NCBI RefSeq assembly: GCF_007752535.1 | Contig: NZ_CP036426.1 | Location: 5,332,001 to 5,396,000 of the forward strand | Length of the DNA stretch: 64,000 nt | Direction of reading: 5' to 3' | DNA from: Tautonia plasticadhaerens | GTDB lineage: Bacteria; Planctomycetota; Planctomycetia; Isosphaerales; Isosphaeraceae | Shown: piece by piece, positions 29,279 through 48,235 of the stretch | How positions within the stretch are numbered: position 1 is the stretch's first letter | Layout: every line of letters starts with the position of its first letter | The notes under the pieces: generated by a model | Told to the model about the DNA's origin: nothing | What the model saw: only the letters and a program-made list of their open reading frames with translations | Databases searched by the model: none | Program-made: the position numbers and the translations under genes

Positions 29279-30990
29279 TTCGGCCTCTTCACCTTGGGTT
29301 TGTCGTCCTTCTCGCCGCTCGCCCCGGCCTTGGCCGAGGGCTCGTCCTTCGCGACCACCGGGGCGAACCCGTTGAGCCGCCGCCAGATCTCGAAGCCCAG
29401 CGGGACCTCCCGGAGCAGGACCCACCCGTTGGCCCGGGCGCCCTGCCGGAGGAACTCGTCCGACGGCCAGGGGCTCCGGACGTAGGCGAACGCGCCCCCC
29501 GTGCTTTCCATCGGCTCATCGGGCCGGAATTCCCCAGAGATCCCGCCGATCGTCAACTCCCCGACGCCCGGATCGTCCCCGTCCGGCTCCACGGCGACGA
29601 CCGTCGCCGAGGCGCCGCTGAGTCGGCCGGTCACCACGTCGCCGGCCGAGAACCGGCCCCGCCGCAGGCCGCCGTAGTTCAGCTCCGGGCCGTCCATGTC
29701 GGGCACGACCAGGATCCGGAACTTGCCCGGCTTGGTCTGGGTCGAGTCCACCAGGGCCACCTTGCCGGGGAAGGTCCCCACGGCCGCCGACGGCCAGCCG
29801 ATGAACTGCAACGCCGGCCAGCCCTCGAACTGGAGCCTCGCCTGGTCGCCGGCCCGGACCAGCGGCACGTCCCGGCCCGGCAGGTAGATCTCGGCGGCCA
29901 GGTGGGGAGTCTCGGGGATGAGGATCGCCAGCGGGTCGCCGTCCTTGACGTAGGCGCCGGCCCCCACGTTGGTCAGCAGCCGGAGCACCGTCCCGGCCCG
30001 GGGGGCGAGCACCTGGCCGCCCTGCTGCTGCTGCCGGATCTTCACGCGGGCGTCCTGGATCTCGTTCTCGGCCTTCTGCACGTAGCCCTGGGCGATCGCC
30101 ACGTCGGACTTGGCCTTCTCGATCTCGGCCTCGGCCTTGGCCTCGACCGCATCCCGCTTGGCCTGGTACGCCTCGACGGATTTCTGGGCCTGGGCCAACG
30201 CCGCCTCGGCCTGGCGGAGCTTCTGCTCGGCGGTGCGGTAGATCTGCTCGGCCTTGACGCGGTCGGCCCCGGACCCGAGGCCTCGCTCGTAGAGCTTCGT
30301 CGACTGGTCGAAGAGGATCTCGTAGCCGGCGGCGTCGGCCTCGGCCTCGGTGACCTTCCCCTCGGCCTCGGTGACCTTCCGCTCGGCCTCGGCGACGGAG
30401 GCCTCGGCCTCGGCGATGGCCTGGACCTTCTCCAGCCGCTTCTGGACCAGGGCGGCCTCGTAGGCCCGGACCGTCTGCTCGGCCTGGTCCAGGGCCATCT
30501 CGTAGTTCCCCAGCTGGAGGTCGAGCGTCTCCACGTACAGCGGGTCGATGTTCTCGACCGAGGCGATCGGGTCGCCGGCCTTCACCACGTCCCCCTCGTT
30601 GACGTAGTAGCGCATGACCCGGCCGTAGATCGGCGCGTCCACCATGAACTCGCGGTCCAGGGGGTGGAAGCCGATCACCTGGCCGTCGCCGTAGACCGAC
30701 TGCCGCCAGGGGACGAGCATCATCAGGGCCGGCAGGGCGACGAAGGCGAACATCAGCATGACGCCGACCTTCCTCGCCACCCTCGGCGTGCCGACCTGCC
30801 GCAGGGCGGGCATCCCCGAGCCGCCGTCGAAGGCCCGGGCCGGCAGGCCGGGGCGGGGCCGGGTGCTCGGCACCCCCGAGACGGGACGCCGGGCCGGGGC
30901 CCGGTGCGCGGGGATCGCCCCCGGCAGGGTGGCGTCGGCCTCGGGGGGCAAGGGTTCGGCTGGGGTGCTCGGCCTCAGTTCAGTCGACAT
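29275..30990 (-). CDS. HlyD-family membrane fusion (adaptor) protein
   Basis: A 571-residue adaptor. A hydrophilic Pro-rich N-terminus precedes one membrane segment at residues 74-94. A biotinyl-lipoyl-like half follows (YGRVMRYYVNEGDVVKAGDP), then a long coiled-coil hairpin (about residues 145-290, rich in Ala/Glu/Lys/Gln), the second lipoyl half (GTVLRLLTNVGAGAYVKDGD) and a beta-barrel domain. The C-terminal extension after residue 480 is unusual and ends in a Lys-rich tail. ATG 30990 overlaps the ABC gene by 16 bases. It links the ABC transporter to the TolC-like protein. Confidence 0.9.
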   Translation of the reverse strand: MSTELRPSTPAEPLPPEADATLPGAIPAHRAPARRPVSGVPSTRPRPGLPARAFDGGSGMPALRQVGTPRVARKVGVMLMFAFVALPALMMLVPWRQSVYGDGQVIGFHPLDREFMVDAPIYGRVMRYYVNEGDVVKAGDPIASVENIDPLYVETLDLQLGNYEMALDQAEQTVRAYEAALVQKRLEKVQAIAEAEASVAEAERKVTEAEGKVTEAEADAAGYEILFDQSTKLYERGLGSGADRVKAEQIYRTAEQKLRQAEAALAQAQKSVEAYQAKRDAVEAKAEAEIEKAKSDVAIAQGYVQKAENEIQDARVKIRQQQQGGQVLAPRAGTVLRLLTNVGAGAYVKDGDPLAILIPETPHLAAEIYLPGRDVPLVRAGDQARLQFEGWPALQFIGWPSAAVGTFPGKVALVDSTQTKPGKFRILVVPDMDGPELNYGGLRRGRFSAGDVVTGRLSGASATVVAVEPDGDDPGVGELTIGGISGEFRPDEPMESTGGAFAYVRSPWPSDEFLRQGARANGWVLLREVPLGFEIWRRLNGFAPVVAKDEPSAKAGASGEKDDKPKVKRPK

Positions 30991-33254
30991 AGCCCGGTCT
31001 CCCTCAGCCAGACTTCGAGATCCCTGGCCCGCCCGTTGGCCGGCTCCAGCGTGTGCTCGATGCGACCCTCGGCCAGGATCACCGCCCGGTCGCAGTGGCC
31101 GACGACCTCCTGGCTGTGCGAGACGATCACCAGCGTCCAGGGGGCCGAGCGGTCGAACAGCGTCTCCAGGACCCGGCTCCGGGCGTCCAGGTCCATGCCG
31201 TCCAGCCCCTCGTCGACGATCAGCAGCCTCGGATCCCCGGCGATCGCCCGGGCCAGCATCAGCCTCCTGGCCTGGCCGAGCGACAGCGGCGCCCCCTTGC
31301 TCGAGAGCATCGTGTGCAGGCCGTCGGGCAGGTCGGAGACCTCCTCCAGCAGCCCGACCGCGTCCAGCGCCCGCCTCACGTCGACCAGCGAGAGCCAGAG
31401 CCGGCCCACCCGCACGTTCTCCAGGATCGTGTCCTCGATCGCCTCCACCCCCTTGACCACCGCCACCTCCGCCCGGAGCGATTCGAGCCGGAAGTCCCGG
31501 GTGTTCGTCCGGTCCAGCTCGATCGAGCCGCCCGACGGCTGCCTCAGGCCGTAGATCAGGTCGACCAGGGTGCTCTTGCCCGAGCCGCTCGGGCCGATGA
31601 CCGCCATCCGCTCCCCCGCCCGGACTTCCAGGTCGAGGTGGCGGAGCACGTCCCGGTGGTCCTCGAAGGCGTAGGAGACGTTCCGCAAGGTCAATGCCGC
31701 CCCCCGGGAATCGAGTTCCCGGTGGACCTCGCCGTCGGGCCGCTCCAGCGGCAGGTCGACCAGCACGCCTAGCTTGTCCATCGCCGCCATCAGGTCGTAC
31801 CAGGCCTCCAGGTGCTTGCCCAGCTTCGTGAACGAGGCGAGCACGGTGGCGATGATCAGCTCCGCCGCCACGAGCTGGCCTAGCGTCAGCTGCTCCTGGA
31901 TCACCAGGTAGCCGCCCAGCCCCAGCAGCGCCGAGCTGGCGATCGCCTGGAGTGCTAGGGCGAAGATGATCTGCCGCATCAGGATGCCGAAGTGCCGACG
32001 GCGTGCCGACAGGTAGCGTCGGGTCGCCGAGTCGGCCCGGTCCATGGCGAAGTCGGACCCGCCGTCGACCTTGTACGCCAGGGGCGCCCGGGCGATCTCC
32101 TCCAGGCCGCCGGCCACCTCGTACTTGGAGACCGACTCCTGGATGCTCGTCCGGATCGCCCCCCGGCCCAGCAGGTAGATGATCAGCGTCATCGACAGCA
32201 GGAGGACCAGGTCGAAGCCCAGCAGGAACGGGTGGTAGAAGGCCAGCACCACCAGGCCGATCGCCGCCCCGAGGATCACCGAGATGCCGTCCAGCAGCAG
32301 CAGGGCCGCCACCTTCTGCACCGTCAGCACGTCGAAGAACCGGTTGACCAGCTCGGGGCCGTTGTTGCGGTCGTACGCGTCGATCCGGACCCGGGGGAGC
32401 CGGTACGCCAGGTCGGCCGTCACCCGGACGAACAGCCTCCGCTGCATCAGCTCGACCATGTAGGTCTGCAAGGCCCGGAGGATCGCCGCCAGCGACAGGC
32501 AGGCGAAGAGGATCAGCGTCAGGACGATCAACTGCTGCAGCAGCAGGTTCAGGGCGACGGTCGTCACCACCGCCTCGATCGCCAGCGGGGTGGCAAGCGA
32601 GAGGATGCCGACCCCCACCGCGTAGGCGACGATCAGCCAGAGGTCCTTCCTCGCCTCCGCCTGCAATAACCCCAGCAGCCGCTTCAGCGGGGAGGGCCCG
32701 TGTCCATGAGCGTGCCCGTGACCGTGTCCGTGTCCGTGTCCGTGTCCGTGTCCGTGGGCCTTCTGGCCGTGCCGGTGGTAGTTCTCGTCGGCGTCGGGAT
32801 CCCGGAGGGCGTGGCAGGGGGCCAGGGGGAGGACCATCATCCAGGTTGCCTCGACGCCGGCCCCCTCCAGGCCGAGCCTGCGGGCCAGGTCCCGGGCCGA
32901 GATCGTCGGCCCGACGTCCCCTCGGTCGGCGGCCGCCAGGCGGCCCGAGTTGCCCCGGCGTCCGACCAGGGTGATCCACTCCCCGGGGCGGCCGTCCCGG
33001 CCGGGGGCGTAGGTCACCACCGGCATGTCGGGGCGGGCGGTGGCGATCGCCTCCCGGGCCGACCACCGGGTCGGGGTCATCCGGAGGCCGAACTGCTTGC
33101 CCATCATCGACAGGCGGGCCTGCCAGGTCTCCTCGGCCGGTCCGGGGAACTCGCGCTCGGCCTGGTAGATCAGCTGTCTCCCCAGCACCGGGTCGTATTC
33201 CTGACCGGCCGCCTGGGTGCAGGCATCGAGCACCACGTCGCTGGCCCAGCCCAT
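30975..33254 (-). CDS. ABC exporter (peptidase-like domain, His-rich linker, TM and ATPase domains)
   Basis: A 759-residue type I secretion/bacteriocin-type exporter. Residues 1-150 resemble a degenerate C39-like domain, without the catalytic Cys/His arrangement that I can recognise. Residues 167-186 are ten alternating His with Gly (one Ala). About six membrane segments follow (residues ~200-480). The ATPase has Walker A GPSGSGKST near 553, signature LSLGQ near 656 (usual LSGGQ) and Walker B RLLIVDEGLD. It likely exports a peptide, protein or other substrate through the adaptor and TolC-like partner. The His-rich linker could bind Zn, Ni or Cu (inference). Confidence 0.88.
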   Translation of the reverse strand: MGWASDVVLDACTQAAGQEYDPVLGRQLIYQAEREFPGPAEETWQARLSMMGKQFGLRMTPTRWSAREAIATARPDMPVVTYAPGRDGRPGEWITLVGRRGNSGRLAAADRGDVGPTISARDLARRLGLEGAGVEATWMMVLPLAPCHALRDPDADENYHRHGQKAHGHGHGHGHGHGHGHAHGHGPSPLKRLLGLLQAEARKDLWLIVAYAVGVGILSLATPLAIEAVVTTVALNLLLQQLIVLTLILFACLSLAAILRALQTYMVELMQRRLFVRVTADLAYRLPRVRIDAYDRNNGPELVNRFFDVLTVQKVAALLLLDGISVILGAAIGLVVLAFYHPFLLGFDLVLLLSMTLIIYLLGRGAIRTSIQESVSKYEVAGGLEEIARAPLAYKVDGGSDFAMDRADSATRRYLSARRRHFGILMRQIIFALALQAIASSALLGLGGYLVIQEQLTLGQLVAAELIIATVLASFTKLGKHLEAWYDLMAAMDKLGVLVDLPLERPDGEVHRELDSRGAALTLRNVSYAFEDHRDVLRHLDLEVRAGERMAVIGPSGSGKSTLVDLIYGLRQPSGGSIELDRTNTRDFRLESLRAEVAVVKGVEAIEDTILENVRVGRLWLSLVDVRRALDAVGLLEEVSDLPDGLHTMLSSKGAPLSLGQARRLMLARAIAGDPRLLIVDEGLDGMDLDARSRVLETLFDRSAPWTLVIVSHSQEVVGHCDRAVILAEGRIEHTLEPANGRARDLEVWLRETGLCRLN
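32723..32756. repeat. Hexanucleotide repeat encoding the His-Gly run
   Basis: The plus strand carries consecutive GTGTCC units (minus strand GGACAC), coding for alternating His and Gly inside the exporter. Changes in copy number would lengthen or shorten the linker by two residues each without breaking the frame. Confidence 0.85.
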
Positions 33255-42620: not shown

Positions 42621-43946
42621 ATGAACTGGCGACTGCGAGACCTGGTCCGGGCCGGGGCGGCCTTGGGCCTGCTCTTCTCGATGGCCGGAGACTCGGCCCG
42701 GGCCCAGGAGCCGATCGGGCTCCCGCCGTCCCCCGAGCTGCTCGGCGAGACGATCGACATCCTCCGCGCCCAGCGCTCCGGCGACCTGGCCGTCGAGGCC
42801 CGGGGGGCCGGCAACGACCGCGTCCGGCTCCGGATCAAGAACACCTCGGACCGGCGCCTCCACGTCGTCCTCCCGCCCGGCCTGGTCGCGTCGGCCGCCT
42901 CGGGCCAGTTCCAGAGCATGGGCCTGGGCGCCCCGACCAATCAGCCGGAGGCCTTCGGCCGGTTCGAGTCCCCCTCCCCCGCCGGGCTTCCCGGCTTCCA
43001 ATCGATCCCCGTCTCCGGCGAGTCCACCGCCCAGGCGGTCACGGTCCCGAGCGGCGAGGAAGTCTCCGTCTCCCTGCCCGCCGTCTGCCTGAACTACGGG
43101 CTGGCGGACCCGAAGCCGGCCGACCGCTTCGAGTTGCTGGACGTCTCCGAGTACTCCCCCGACGCCCGGGTCCAGCGCGCCCTGCGGTCGCTGGCGACCT
43201 ACGGCACCGGCCGTCGGGTGGCCCAGGTCGTCATGTGGAACGTCTGCAACGGCCTGGCGATCCCCCAGGTCGAGCGGCTCTCCCCCAAGCTGGCCAATCA
43301 GTGGGAGCTGGCCCTGGCCGGCCGCTTCGTCGAGGCGCTCGACGCCTCCACCTCCGGCGAGCTGGTCGACCCCGCCTACCTCACCTCCGGCCGGGTCTTC
43401 GTCCGGGTCCAGGGCGAGGGCGACCTGGCCGACGACGCCTCCCGGCTGGCCGACGCCCTCGACGGCGCCCCCCTGCTCGGCCTGCCCGCCCGGGTCGTCC
43501 GCGGGGCCGACGAGCCGACCGCCTCCGGCCCGGCCCTCTACCTGGTCGTGACCCTCACCTCCTCGACCGACAGCCAGACCGCCGGGCGGATCGCCGTCCA
43601 CGGCGTCGGCCGGGATCGGGAGTGGACCAACGGCGGCACCGCCAAGCTGGCGCTCGACGCACCGACCTCCTCGGTCGATGCCATCATGCTCGGCTCGGGC
43701 ATCGACCGCGCCGTCGCCTCCAAGTTCGTCACGGTCCGCAGCCTCGGCAACGCCGACGGCGGCAACCGGCTGGTCGTCGAGAACGGCCTGCCGATGACGC
43801 TCGCCGGCCTGACGCTGGACACCGCCGCCACCGGCGGCGCCCTCGTCCCGTTCGACGGCATCGGCGTCGGCCCGCTTCGATCGGCCGAGGTCCTCGTCCC
43901 CGCCGCCTCCGGCCGGGTGGATTCCCTTCAGCTGAACGGCCTGTGA
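42621..43946 (+). CDS. Exported protein of unknown function
   Basis: A 441-residue protein with a clear signal peptide (LVRAGAALGLLFSMAGDSARA, cleavage after about 28). The mature part looks beta-rich, with a first domain (residues 50-150, KNTSDRRLHVVLPPG) and a helical central region around residues 180-260 (RVQRALRSLATYGTG, VMWNVCNGL, LANQWELALAGRFVEALD). The C-terminal part has repeated beta strands. AGAGG precedes ATG 42621. I do not recognise a named family. It probably acts in the periplasm or at the cell surface. Confidence 0.75.
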   Translation: MNWRLRDLVRAGAALGLLFSMAGDSARAQEPIGLPPSPELLGETIDILRAQRSGDLAVEARGAGNDRVRLRIKNTSDRRLHVVLPPGLVASAASGQFQSMGLGAPTNQPEAFGRFESPSPAGLPGFQSIPVSGESTAQAVTVPSGEEVSVSLPAVCLNYGLADPKPADRFELLDVSEYSPDARVQRALRSLATYGTGRRVAQVVMWNVCNGLAIPQVERLSPKLANQWELALAGRFVEALDASTSGELVDPAYLTSGRVFVRVQGEGDLADDASRLADALDGAPLLGLPARVVRGADEPTASGPALYLVVTLTSSTDSQTAGRIAVHGVGRDREWTNGGTAKLALDAPTSSVDAIMLGSGIDRAVASKFVTVRSLGNADGGNRLVVENGLPMTLAGLTLDTAATGGALVPFDGIGVGPLRSAEVLVPAASGRVDSLQLNGL

Positions 43947-45047: not shown

Positions 45048-45317
45048 ATGACCCGATGCCGCGTCTCCTACGACGGCCGAGTCCAGGGCGTGGGATTCCG
45101 GGCCACGGCCTGCCGGATCGCCGACGATTTCGAGGTGGGCGGCACGGTCCGCAACCTGGACGACGGGCGGGTCGAGCTGGTCGTCGAGGGCCCGGAGGAC
45201 GAGGTGGAGACGTTCCTGGCGGCGGTCCGTTCCGAACTCCGGCGGGTCATCCGCGAGGAGCATTCGGAAAACCTCCCCCCGGGCGAACCATTCCCCGGGT
45301 TCCGCGTAGCATACTGA
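45048..45317 (+). CDS. acyP: Acylphosphatase
   Basis: An 89-residue cytosolic enzyme that hydrolyses carboxyl-phosphate bonds. It carries the signature GRVQGVGFRATA with the phosphate-binding Arg, and the catalytic Asn in VRNLDDGRVELVVEG. I chose ATG 45048; an upstream in-frame ATG at 45027 would add seven residues. Confidence 0.93.
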   Translation: MTRCRVSYDGRVQGVGFRATACRIADDFEVGGTVRNLDDGRVELVVEGPEDEVETFLAAVRSELRRVIREEHSENLPPGEPFPGFRVAY

Positions 45318-45435: not shown

Positions 45436-46257
45436 ATGAAAGCGCTGACCATCGCGCGCGCGACCGCCACCCAGGCGATCCGCCAGCCGGCCTTCATCGT
45501 CCTGCTAGCCTTCGCCTCGATGATCCTGATCACCTCGGTGTTCCTGCCGTACTTCACGTTCGGCGAGGACATCAAGATGTACAAGGACACCGGGCTGACC
45601 ACCATCACCTTCTTCGCCCTGCTGCTGGCGCTGTTGACCAGCAGCTCGGCCGTGGCCGAGGAGATCGAGGGGAAGACGGCGGTCACGCTGCTCTCCAAGC
45701 CGGTGAACCGCCGGCAGTTCATCCTGGGCAAGTTCCTTGGGATCGAGCTGGCGGTGCTCGTGCTGTTCCTGATCCTCGGGGCCCTGTTCTCCGCCGGGGT
45801 CTGGTACAAGTACGTGTACGACCTCCGGGAGGGGGCGGGCGGCACGGTCGACTCGGCCATGCGGATCAAGCAGGTGCTCCAGGTCATGCCGGGGCTGGCG
45901 CTGGGCTTCTTCGAGGTGACGGTGATCGCCGCCATCAGCGTGGCGATCTCGACCCGCCTGCCGATGCTGGTGAACCTGATCACCTGCATCTCGATCTTCT
46001 TCCTCGGCCACCTCACCGAGGTCCTGGTCCGCCAGGCCGAGGCGATCCGGGCCAACGAGCTGGTCACCTTCATGGCCCGCCTCTTCCAGTGGGCCCTGCC
46101 GTTCCTGGAGTTCTTCAACGCCGGCCCGGCGATCTCGACCGGGGTGATCATCCCCTGGGTCGGTTACGTGCTGCCGGCGCTGCTCTACTGCGTGTTGTAT
46201 AGTGGAGCGGCCCTGCTGTTCGCGTTCCTGCTATTCGAGACCCGCGACGTGGCGTGA
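45436..46257 (+). CDS. ABC-2 type transporter permease
   Basis: A 273-residue membrane protein with six hydrophobic segments. It starts MKALTIARATATQAIRQPAF, then the first membrane helix, and contains the typical SSAVAEEIEGKTAVTLLSKP and NRRQFILGKFLG segment of ABC-2 permeases (NosY/GldF-like). Its ATPase partner is not adjacent: the next gene is a type-1 exporter with its own, degraded, ATPase domain. A hairpin lies about 17 bases after the stop. It may therefore pair with a distant ATPase. Confidence 0.88.
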   Translation: MKALTIARATATQAIRQPAFIVLLAFASMILITSVFLPYFTFGEDIKMYKDTGLTTITFFALLLALLTSSSAVAEEIEGKTAVTLLSKPVNRRQFILGKFLGIELAVLVLFLILGALFSAGVWYKYVYDLREGAGGTVDSAMRIKQVLQVMPGLALGFFEVTVIAAISVAISTRLPMLVNLITCISIFFLGHLTEVLVRQAEAIRANELVTFMARLFQWALPFLEFFNAGPAISTGVIIPWVGYVLPALLYCVLYSGAALLFAFLLFETRDVA

Positions 46258-46354: not shown

Positions 46355-48235
46355 ATGAGCTGGGACGATTATCGCCGCGTCCGCCGAGGCGCGAGGATCG
46401 ATTCCACCCGCCAGGCGGTCATCCACCTCGCCGGGGTCGTCCAGTCGCTGCTGGTCGTCGCCCTGGTCCTGGTGGTCGGCCTGGTCATCGCGCTGATCGA
46501 CTCCGGGCCGGGCGAAGCGACGGTGAGGCTGGAGGGCTCGGGGGATCGCACGCTGGCCCGGATCTCCCTGGCCCTGCCGGGCGACCCCAGCGGGGCCGCC
46601 TCGCTGGAATCCCGGCGGGTCGCCGCCCAGGGGATCCTCGCCATCCTCGTCGCGGTGGCGCTCGGGCTGCTGCTGGCGATCACCACCCTCGACGCCCTCC
46701 GGCGCTGGGCCGCCGCCCGGCTCTCGGCCCGCCTGGGGGCCGCGCTCCGGCGGCAGATCCACCGCCAGATGTACCGCTTCGGCCAGTCGTCCCTGCCGAC
46801 CGAGGGGATCGGCCCGATCGTCGACCTGTTCACCCGGCAGGTCGACGACCTCCGGGACGGCTTCCGCGCCGGGCTCGACGGCCTCTGGCGGCTCCCCGTC
46901 CTGTTCATCGGCCTGCTGGTGCTGGCGTTGGCCCTCTCGTGGCAGATGGCGCTGTTCCTCGGCGTGCTGGGCCTGCTGGTGGCCCTGCTCGCCTCCTCGC
47001 TGCTGCGACGCTCCTCGTCGTCCGCCACGGCCGCCGAGCGCGACTCGGCCATGAAGATGAGCCTGCTGCACGAGGACCTCGGCCAGATCCGCACCGTTCG
47101 GGTCTTCGCCATCGAGGGGGCCGACAACCGCCGCTTCGACGACCACCTGGAGGAGTATCGCGAGGCCGACGCCTCCCGGCTCCCGTTCGACACCCGGCCC
47201 GGCCCCGGCGTGGCGCTGCTGCTGGGGATCGCCGGCGCCCTGGCCTTCGGCATGGTCGGCTACCTCGCCCTCGCCGGGGCCCTGGAACCGTCGACCGCGC
47301 TGACGTTGGCCCTCACCCTCGGCCTGCTGCCGCTGCCCCTCTCCGGCTGGGCCCGGATGCGCCGCGTCCGGCGTCGGGCCGCGCGGGCCGCCTTCGACGT
47401 GGCCCGGTTCCTCGACCGTCGCCCCGAGCTGCTCCAGGTCCCCGCCGCGAAGTTCCTCTCGCCGGTTCGCAACCGGATCGTCCTGGAGAACGTCTCGGTC
47501 GAGGGCCCCACCGGCCGTCGCCTGCTGGAGGGCGTCTCCCTGGAGCTGCCCGCCGGCTCCCGGACCGCTCTCATGGGCCGGGACGAGGACAGCAAGCAGG
47601 CCCTCGTCTGCCTGCTCCCCCGCCTGCTCGACCCCCGCACCGGCCGGGTCCGCATGGACGGCCTGGATCTCCGGGAGGTCACGCTCGACTCCCTCCGCGC
47701 CCAGGTCTCCACCGTCTTCCAGTCCGACCTGATCTTCAGCGACACCGTCCGCTTCAACATCGGCCTGGGGGACCCCAGCTACGACCTCCCCCGGATGATC
47801 GAGGCCGCCAAGAACGCCCACGCCCACCACATCATCCAGGACCTCCCCGAGGGCTACGACACCTACGTCGGCCCGCTCGGCCACTACCTCCGGGTGGACG
47901 AGCAGTACCGGATCGCCCTGGCCCGGGCCTGGCTGCACGACCCCTCGATCCTCATCATTGAGGAGCCGACCGTCCCCCTCGACGAGACGATCAAGCCCCT
48001 GATCGACGACGCCGTCGCCCGCCTCTCCCAGGGCCGCACGGTCCTGTTCCTCGCCCACCGGCTCTCGACCATCCGGGCATGCGACCGCGTCATCGTCCTC
48101 CACAACGGCCGGATCGAGGCCAGCGGCACCGCCCGGGACCTCCAGGCCGAGAGCAAGCTCTACCGGCACCTCCAGTACCTGGAATTCAACCAGTTCGCCG
48201 CCGGGGGCATCGAGGCCGGGCAGATGCACGGCTGA
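46355..48235 (+). CDS. ABC exporter half-transporter with degenerate nucleotide-binding motifs
   Basis: A 626-residue protein with the type I exporter layout: membrane domain (about 1-370) and ATPase-like domain (about 380-600). The usual Walker A is replaced by MGRDEDSKQAL, the LSGGQ signature by LRVDEQ, and Walker B has ILIIEEP instead of a DE pair. The Q-loop (VFQSDLIF), the D-loop Asp (PLDE) and the H-loop (LFLAHRLSTI) remain. It reads through without frameshift, so it is a maintained protein. It may bind but not hydrolyse ATP, or work as one half of a heterodimer (inference). Confidence 0.88.
   Translation: MSWDDYRRVRRGARIDSTRQAVIHLAGVVQSLLVVALVLVVGLVIALIDSGPGEATVRLEGSGDRTLARISLALPGDPSGAASLESRRVAAQGILAILVAVALGLLLAITTLDALRRWAAARLSARLGAALRRQIHRQMYRFGQSSLPTEGIGPIVDLFTRQVDDLRDGFRAGLDGLWRLPVLFIGLLVLALALSWQMALFLGVLGLLVALLASSLLRRSSSSATAAERDSAMKMSLLHEDLGQIRTVRVFAIEGADNRRFDDHLEEYREADASRLPFDTRPGPGVALLLGIAGALAFGMVGYLALAGALEPSTALTLALTLGLLPLPLSGWARMRRVRRRAARAAFDVARFLDRRPELLQVPAAKFLSPVRNRIVLENVSVEGPTGRRLLEGVSLELPAGSRTALMGRDEDSKQALVCLLPRLLDPRTGRVRMDGLDLREVTLDSLRAQVSTVFQSDLIFSDTVRFNIGLGDPSYDLPRMIEAAKNAHAHHIIQDLPEGYDTYVGPLGHYLRVDEQYRIALARAWLHDPSILIIEEPTVPLDETIKPLIDDAVARLSQGRTVLFLAHRLSTIRACDRVIVLHNGRIEASGTARDLQAESKLYRHLQYLEFNQFAAGGIEAGQMHG

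Follow-up and report, generated by a model that had tools for sequence, protein, structure and literature searches.

A class-wide family of planctomycete ABC half-exporters with eroded nucleotide-site motifs, encoded beside an orphan ABC-2 permease

Results

Gene order and predicted protein

The window, by which we mean the entire 64,000-nucleotide stretch of the Tautonia plasticadhaerens genome under analysis, carries on its plus strand an acylphosphatase gene (45048..45317; PF00708, E 1e-18), an orphan ABC-2 permease gene (45436..46257; PF12679) and, just downstream, a gene of the ABC exporter type (46355..48235). The last of these encodes a half-exporter in which a transmembrane domain (TMD) is followed by an eroded nucleotide-binding domain (NBD); we refer to its product as pseudo-ABC. 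The acylphosphatase gene is often, not always, part of the cluster, and precedes the permease in 17 loci of our clustering set, the window included. Farther upstream, the window has at 42714-43943 (+) a gene for a conserved protein without a Pfam match, which is found upstream of the cluster in nine loci of Isosphaeraceae and their relatives. On the downstream side, Isosphaeraceae loci (e.g. L052, L054) share a conserved order of SDR, subtilase-like and kdsB-like genes, all named by eye, and the window contains a kdsB-like frame about 5.4 kb beyond pseudo-ABC. Elsewhere in the window, a 759-aa ABC protein encoded on the minus strand (30975-33254) beside an HlyD-like frame combines a canonical Walker A (GPSGSGKS) with alterations in the Q-loop (VKGVEA) and the signature (LSLGQ).

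The pseudo-ABC frame runs from an ATG at 46355 to a stop codon at 48233-48235 and encodes 626 residues with no internal stop, in line with the full reading frame reported in the first-pass annotation. Although the frame could begin at a GTG at 46202, we took the ATG as the start, since the alignment with three congeners begins at residue 1. Pfam places PF00664 at residues 98-320 (E 5e-19) and PF00005 at 391-539 (E 1e-13); among 45 members of the eroded family (set A3), PF00664 was matched in 41 and PF00005 in all 45. A TMD of the ABC_membrane family thus precedes an ABC_tran domain in one chain, as in type IV exporters, and the consensus Walker A, signature and Walker B motifs with which such exporters hydrolyse ATP are absent. 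The sequence relatives of pseudo-ABC are MsbA and ABCB proteins; its score against the MsbA_lipidA profile, 239 bits, is far under the MsbA equivalog cut-off of 602 bits.

An AlphaFold2 model of pseudo-ABC, built from 45 eroded sequences, reached a mean pLDDT of 83.6 and a pTM of 0.79, with the NBD modelled best (mostly >90). When compared with the PDB, the model matched TM287/288, TmrAB, MsbA, ABCB8 and further ABCB chains (Foldseek E values as low as 7e-30), and VIA-align gave Z ~30 with an rmsd mostly of 5-9 over ~500 residues. By its domain order and the ABCB fold of the model, pseudo-ABC is a type IV (MsbA/ABCB-like) half-exporter.

Erosion of the nucleotide-site motifs

The predicted nucleotide site of pseudo-ABC departs from the consensus at four places. 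At the A-loop, F-x-Y is replaced by V-E-G at residues 382-384, and the position of the Tyr is occupied by Gly384 (47504..47506), a column that holds Tyr in 32/32 canonical homologues and in 0/76 eroded rows. The Walker A region reads MGRDEDSKQAL; comparison of columns with the canonical rows identifies residues 408-416, GRDEDSKQA (47576..47602), as the former motif, including a derived Asp410. In the signature region, YLRVDEQYRIALARA, the former motif is LRVDE at 512-516 (47888..47902), where Ser513 is present in 32/32 canonical and 6/76 eroded rows. In the Walker B region, ILIIEEPTVPLDE, the former motif is ILIIEEP at 532-538 (47948..47968), with Asp536 changed to Glu, Glu537 kept and Ala538 changed to Pro. 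Present in the protein are the Q-loop VFQ with Gln456 (47720..47722), the D-loop Asp (Asp543, in PLDE) and the H-loop AHRLS with His568 (48056..48058), as well as Lys414. Four paralogues in the same genome (L002-L005) have Walker A and Walker B intact at the same columns.

Erosion of Walker A, signature and Walker B had been proposed on first inspection, and all three are indeed altered, but Walker A keeps its Lys and, of the Walker B acidic pair, only the Asp is replaced, leaving the catalytic Glu in place. The loss of the A-loop Tyr comes in addition to the motifs then named. Similarly, the Q-, D- and H-loops do remain in the window protein as claimed, whereas Gln456 (43/76 eroded rows) and His568 (35/76) are not conserved family-wide.

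We compared 76 eroded with 32 canonical rows, leaving out L005 (which overlaps L003), L006 (very divergent) and nine duplicate loci. All 32 canonical homologues were intact at the columns of the Walker A glycines, the Lys and the Walker B Asp-Glu, and therefore the pattern of erosion is not due to chance. P-loop Gly411 and Gly413, for instance, occur in 32/32 canonical rows versus about 1% of the eroded ones; the A-loop Tyr, these two glycines, the Ser/Thr and the signature Ser are missing in nearly all eroded rows. New residues have become nearly fixed, namely Asp410 (65/76), Ala416 (63/76), Phe or Tyr in place of Gln518 after the signature (71/76) and Pro538 (74/76), while Walker B shows Glu536, the former Asp, in 72/76 rows. 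One sequence, L178, reads VDEP and so has the Walker B Asp, its other motifs being eroded.

To quantify retention we used 58 NBD positions with a conservation of 90% or more among the canonical rows, of which 13 were assigned to the nucleotide site on what we take to be established features of ABC structures. Median retention in the eroded rows was 46% at these 13 positions versus 92% at the 45 others (Mann-Whitney p 0.004). Judged from the alignment, the nucleotide site has been lost in a targeted way, and the remaining NBD has been kept, with the helical subdomain and the catalytic Glu among the parts retained.

Because Lys414 persists in 37/76 rows and Glu537 in 76/76, a weak or altered binding of nucleotides is conceivable, and the domain might be a sensor of a nucleotide or other phosphate ligand rather than dead. 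The retention of Gln456 and His568 in part of the rows and the strong constraint on the NBD would be in keeping with such a sensor. However, the A-loop Tyr and the P-loop glycines are gone from practically all rows, acidic residues stand where phosphates bind (Asp410, and often Glu or Asp at 411-413), and the Lys, Gln and His differ between eroded lineages, all of which makes altered binding distinctly unlikely in our view.

Ancestry and constraint of the eroded family

An eroded orthologue was present in 25/25 family genomes (that of the window plus 24), represented in G010 by a fragment of the NBD where a contig ends; the family codes f1-f13 are tied to Isosphaeraceae through identical loci only (e.g. 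L024 and L050, L036 and L054). Among 80 named loci, 51 were eroded and the other 29 were canonical ABC exporters in other clades. The eroded ones come from Isosphaeraceae (Singulisphaera, Paludisphaera), Gemmataceae (Gemmata, Fimbriiglobus, Limnoglobus), Planctomycetaceae (Schlesneria, Planctomyces) and unplaced planctomycetes. A phylum-wide draw of 393 genomes gave a full match in 59, all from the same class and all with a single copy (59/59), at a strict cut calibrated at E 1e-125 that misses very diverged orthologues such as that of G008 (267 bits), absence here meaning not detected. When loci from this draw were read for motifs, 30/30 were eroded. The G008 match, 31% identical, at first seemed ordinary and turned out to be a further eroded orthologue at the same place. 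In this orthologue (L134:6128-8095), PF00664 is undetected and PF00005 falls under the cut-off, and EEP is still present.

With the motif columns dropped, a tree of 71 eroded and 34 canonical rows united the eroded sequences in one clade (SH-aLRT 100), and a mixture-model tree of 41 rows (23 eroded, 18 canonical) supported that clade with 100/100. On these trees, the putative pseudo-ATPase half-exporter arose once in Planctomycetia and was then kept. NBD dN/dS ranged from 0.014 to 0.253 in 13 pairs, the 14th being saturated, among pairs that share rows and of which many are near saturation. NBD identity exceeded whole-protein identity in 13/14 pairs. These measures indicate strong purifying selection on the seemingly dead NBD.

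The first reading of this gene had favoured selection over decay and had asked for an alignment of orthologues, which supports that view: the substitutions are fixed, in the family genomes and in a class-wide clade. An orthologue with intact motifs at the same locus, the sign of a copy that is simply degenerating, was sought and none was found. That pseudo-ABC is a decaying pseudogene, as the lost motifs and the further eroded G008 orthologue might be taken to mean, is scarcely credible in the face of open full-length frames, the low NBD dN/dS of 13 pairs, newly fixed residues and persistence across the class. Decay of a single copy was likewise rejected, given erosion in all family genomes, the single clade, the low dN/dS and the class-wide spread. 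Pseudo-ABC thus bears the sequence marks of a pseudo-ATPase: residues of the catalytic site are gone, the fold and purifying selection persist, and the changes are fixed in orthologues.

The neighbouring permease

The model of the neighbouring permease (pLDDT 82) found its best fold match in NosY (E 1.5e-4, TM ~0.63-0.67), and ranks 1-11 of the PDB search were NosDFY or NosFY chains of NosY length. An ABC-2 permease lacking its own ATPase had been noted just upstream of pseudo-ABC, and this was borne out: the permease is there, and other NBDs in the same genome come no nearer than ~13 kb.

In 39/47 named eroded loci with enough upstream sequence, the permease gene precedes that of pseudo-ABC in the same orientation; four of the 51 (L073, L083, L092, L105) were excluded because theirs was short. 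The remaining eight comprise seven loci in which no ABC-2 permease was detected upstream (L061, L063, L064, L065, L082, L093, L100) and L084, where a different ABC-2 permease is accompanied by its own ATPase. In the family genomes the pair is adjacent in 24/25, the 25th being cut by a contig end. A separate draw yielded 36 genomes with both genes, adjacent in 33 and apart in three (G031, G196, G216), and the permease was upstream of pseudo-ABC in 28/30 of the phylum-draw loci read.

These exceptions bear on another explanation, namely that pseudo-ABC is a stand-alone pseudo-transporter, an ATP-free homodimer acting as facilitator, channel, scramblase or membrane scaffold and merely co-transcribed with the permease. 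Retention of the full TMD and frame, the three genomes with the genes apart and the seven loci without a detected permease all agree with it. Against it stand the adjacency of one and the same permease family in 33/36 and 39/47 cases and the NBD, which is better conserved than the TMD in most pairs, an odd feature for a channel made of the TMD only. We therefore regard a stand-alone function as unlikely.

Of 52 class genomes listed, 36 had both genes, 15 the permease without a detected pseudo-ABC and one (G298) neither; pseudo-ABC without the permease occurred in none of the 52. The 15 genomes imply that the permease does not need pseudo-ABC, and the counts as a whole make the permease the more widespread of the two, which pseudo-ABC accompanies. 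Where pseudo-ABC is missing, the permease frames are often 510-627 codons long (L136, L138, L184, L185, L189-L192), suggesting an N-terminal extension of ~250 residues.

Candidate ATPases and half-exporter partners

Around 43 pseudo-ABC loci, other NBDs were encoded within 10 kb in only two (L070, L084), and both resemble stand-alone import or ABC-2 type ATPases. Nor was a cognate ATPase found near the permease in 15 class loci lacking an adjacent pseudo-ABC (0/15, in stretches of 12-15 kb). Outside the class, a canonical ATPase lies ~4.5 kb from a permease homologue in 2/11 loci (L202, L203); in these two, the distant homologues are found near a NatA-like ABC ATPase and SPFH/HflKC-like frames (SPFH named by eye), a setting that is possibly ancestral. 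The relative of this ATPase in the window's genome (52% identity) is encoded next to a 945-aa ABC-2 permease of its own, and it is possible that one ATPase is shared between that permease and the orphan. Cluster 27, considered as the permease ATPase at the locus, was rejected, its members being an unrelated protein with which an ATPase-like stretch is merged only in L070. If the permease is an active transporter, the ATPase that drives it is probably encoded away from the locus; in the window's genome, the ATPase at G000:C1:8017132-8017899 is one candidate.

The same surroundings were searched for a heterodimer partner, as the first-pass annotation had advised, and no half-exporter was found alongside pseudo-ABC (10 kb around 43 loci; ~13 kb in the window's genome). 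Pseudo-ABC might nevertheless be the degenerate half of a heterodimeric exporter such as TM287/288, TmrAB or TAP, with the intact half encoded elsewhere; TM287/288 and TmrAB are among its closest folds, and the genome does encode the canonical half-exporters L002-L005. NBD dimers have a head-to-tail geometry, in which each composite site pairs the Walker half of one protomer with the signature of the other. In a heterodimer no canonical site would be regained: the pseudo-ABC protomer lacks both the Walker A/Walker B half and the signature half, so that a dead half would sit in each composite site. In known degenerate exporters, according to PMC7756269, one site stays canonical and the degenerate site binds ATP as well. 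A dimer with pseudo-ABC would fall short of the at least one canonical composite site of such exporters, both half-sites being eroded; moreover, the locus has no conserved half-exporter, and neither of the two NBDs near it is half-exporter-like. We consider such a heterodimer very unlikely.

Discussion

Our data describe a half-exporter whose NBD has lost much of its nucleotide site and is otherwise conserved. The partner to which conservation points is not another half-exporter but the ABC-2 permease encoded upstream. We give about an even chance to pseudo-ABC being a non-hydrolysing structural or regulatory partner of this permease. It would form an ABCB-shaped dimer without canonical ATP binding or hydrolysis and serve the NosY-like permease as a structural or regulatory subunit that may hold or gate it, or hand over a substrate to it; the ATPase would be supplied from elsewhere, if the permease is an active transporter. 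The non-hydrolysing or regulatory role suggested at the outset would fit these sequences, from which we also infer a loss of ATP binding and a physical complex with the permease. Neighbourhood of the two genes does not amount to proof of that complex.

More speculatively, and with a good deal of doubt, the two proteins may constitute a hybrid machine, in which a type IV half-exporter whose engine is dead and an engineless NosY-like permease form one complex with no ABC ATPase of its own. The former NBD would then have been rebuilt as a docking or ligand-sensing domain marked by the fixed motif D410 ... F/Y518 ... E-E-P.

ATP hydrolysis defines ABC transporters, and in this bacterial family, which spans a class, practically all copies read lack both half-sites and the NBD is still the better conserved half in most comparisons. 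Such proteins would be annotated as ordinary ABC exporters. They offer a natural test of NBD roles other than hydrolysis, and likewise of whether an orphan ABC-2 permease relies on a pseudo-ABC partner or on a borrowed ATPase. Exporters with a degenerate site are already a known kind, as are pseudo-ATPases; in searches of the open-access literature we found no description of an ABC exporter, planctomycete or other, with all its sites lost, nor of a class-wide exporter family combining the loss of both half-sites with a link to an orphan permease.

Among known systems, the homodimeric half-exporters MsbA and ABCB share with pseudo-ABC the order of TMD and NBD, the fold and sequence kinship; unlike them, pseudo-ABC has no canonical nucleotide site and is encoded beside an orphan ABC-2 permease. 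TM287/288, TmrAB, BmrCD, TAP and MRP have likewise lost consensus residues of NBD motifs under selection. According to PMC7756269, however, these heterodimers with a degenerate site retain one canonical site and have ATP bound in the other, whereas both half-sites of pseudo-ABC are dead and it has no linked half-exporter. In NosDFY, the NosY permease, whose fold is shared by the permease at our locus, works with the ATPase NosF; here no NosF-like ATPase gene adjoins the permease, and pseudo-ABC is the constant neighbour instead. In animals, SUR1/ABCC8 and CFTR are ABC proteins that have turned into regulators or channels and still bind ATP. Their lineage is unrelated to that of pseudo-ABC, and they provide a precedent for the ABC-exporter fold serving as a regulator or channel.
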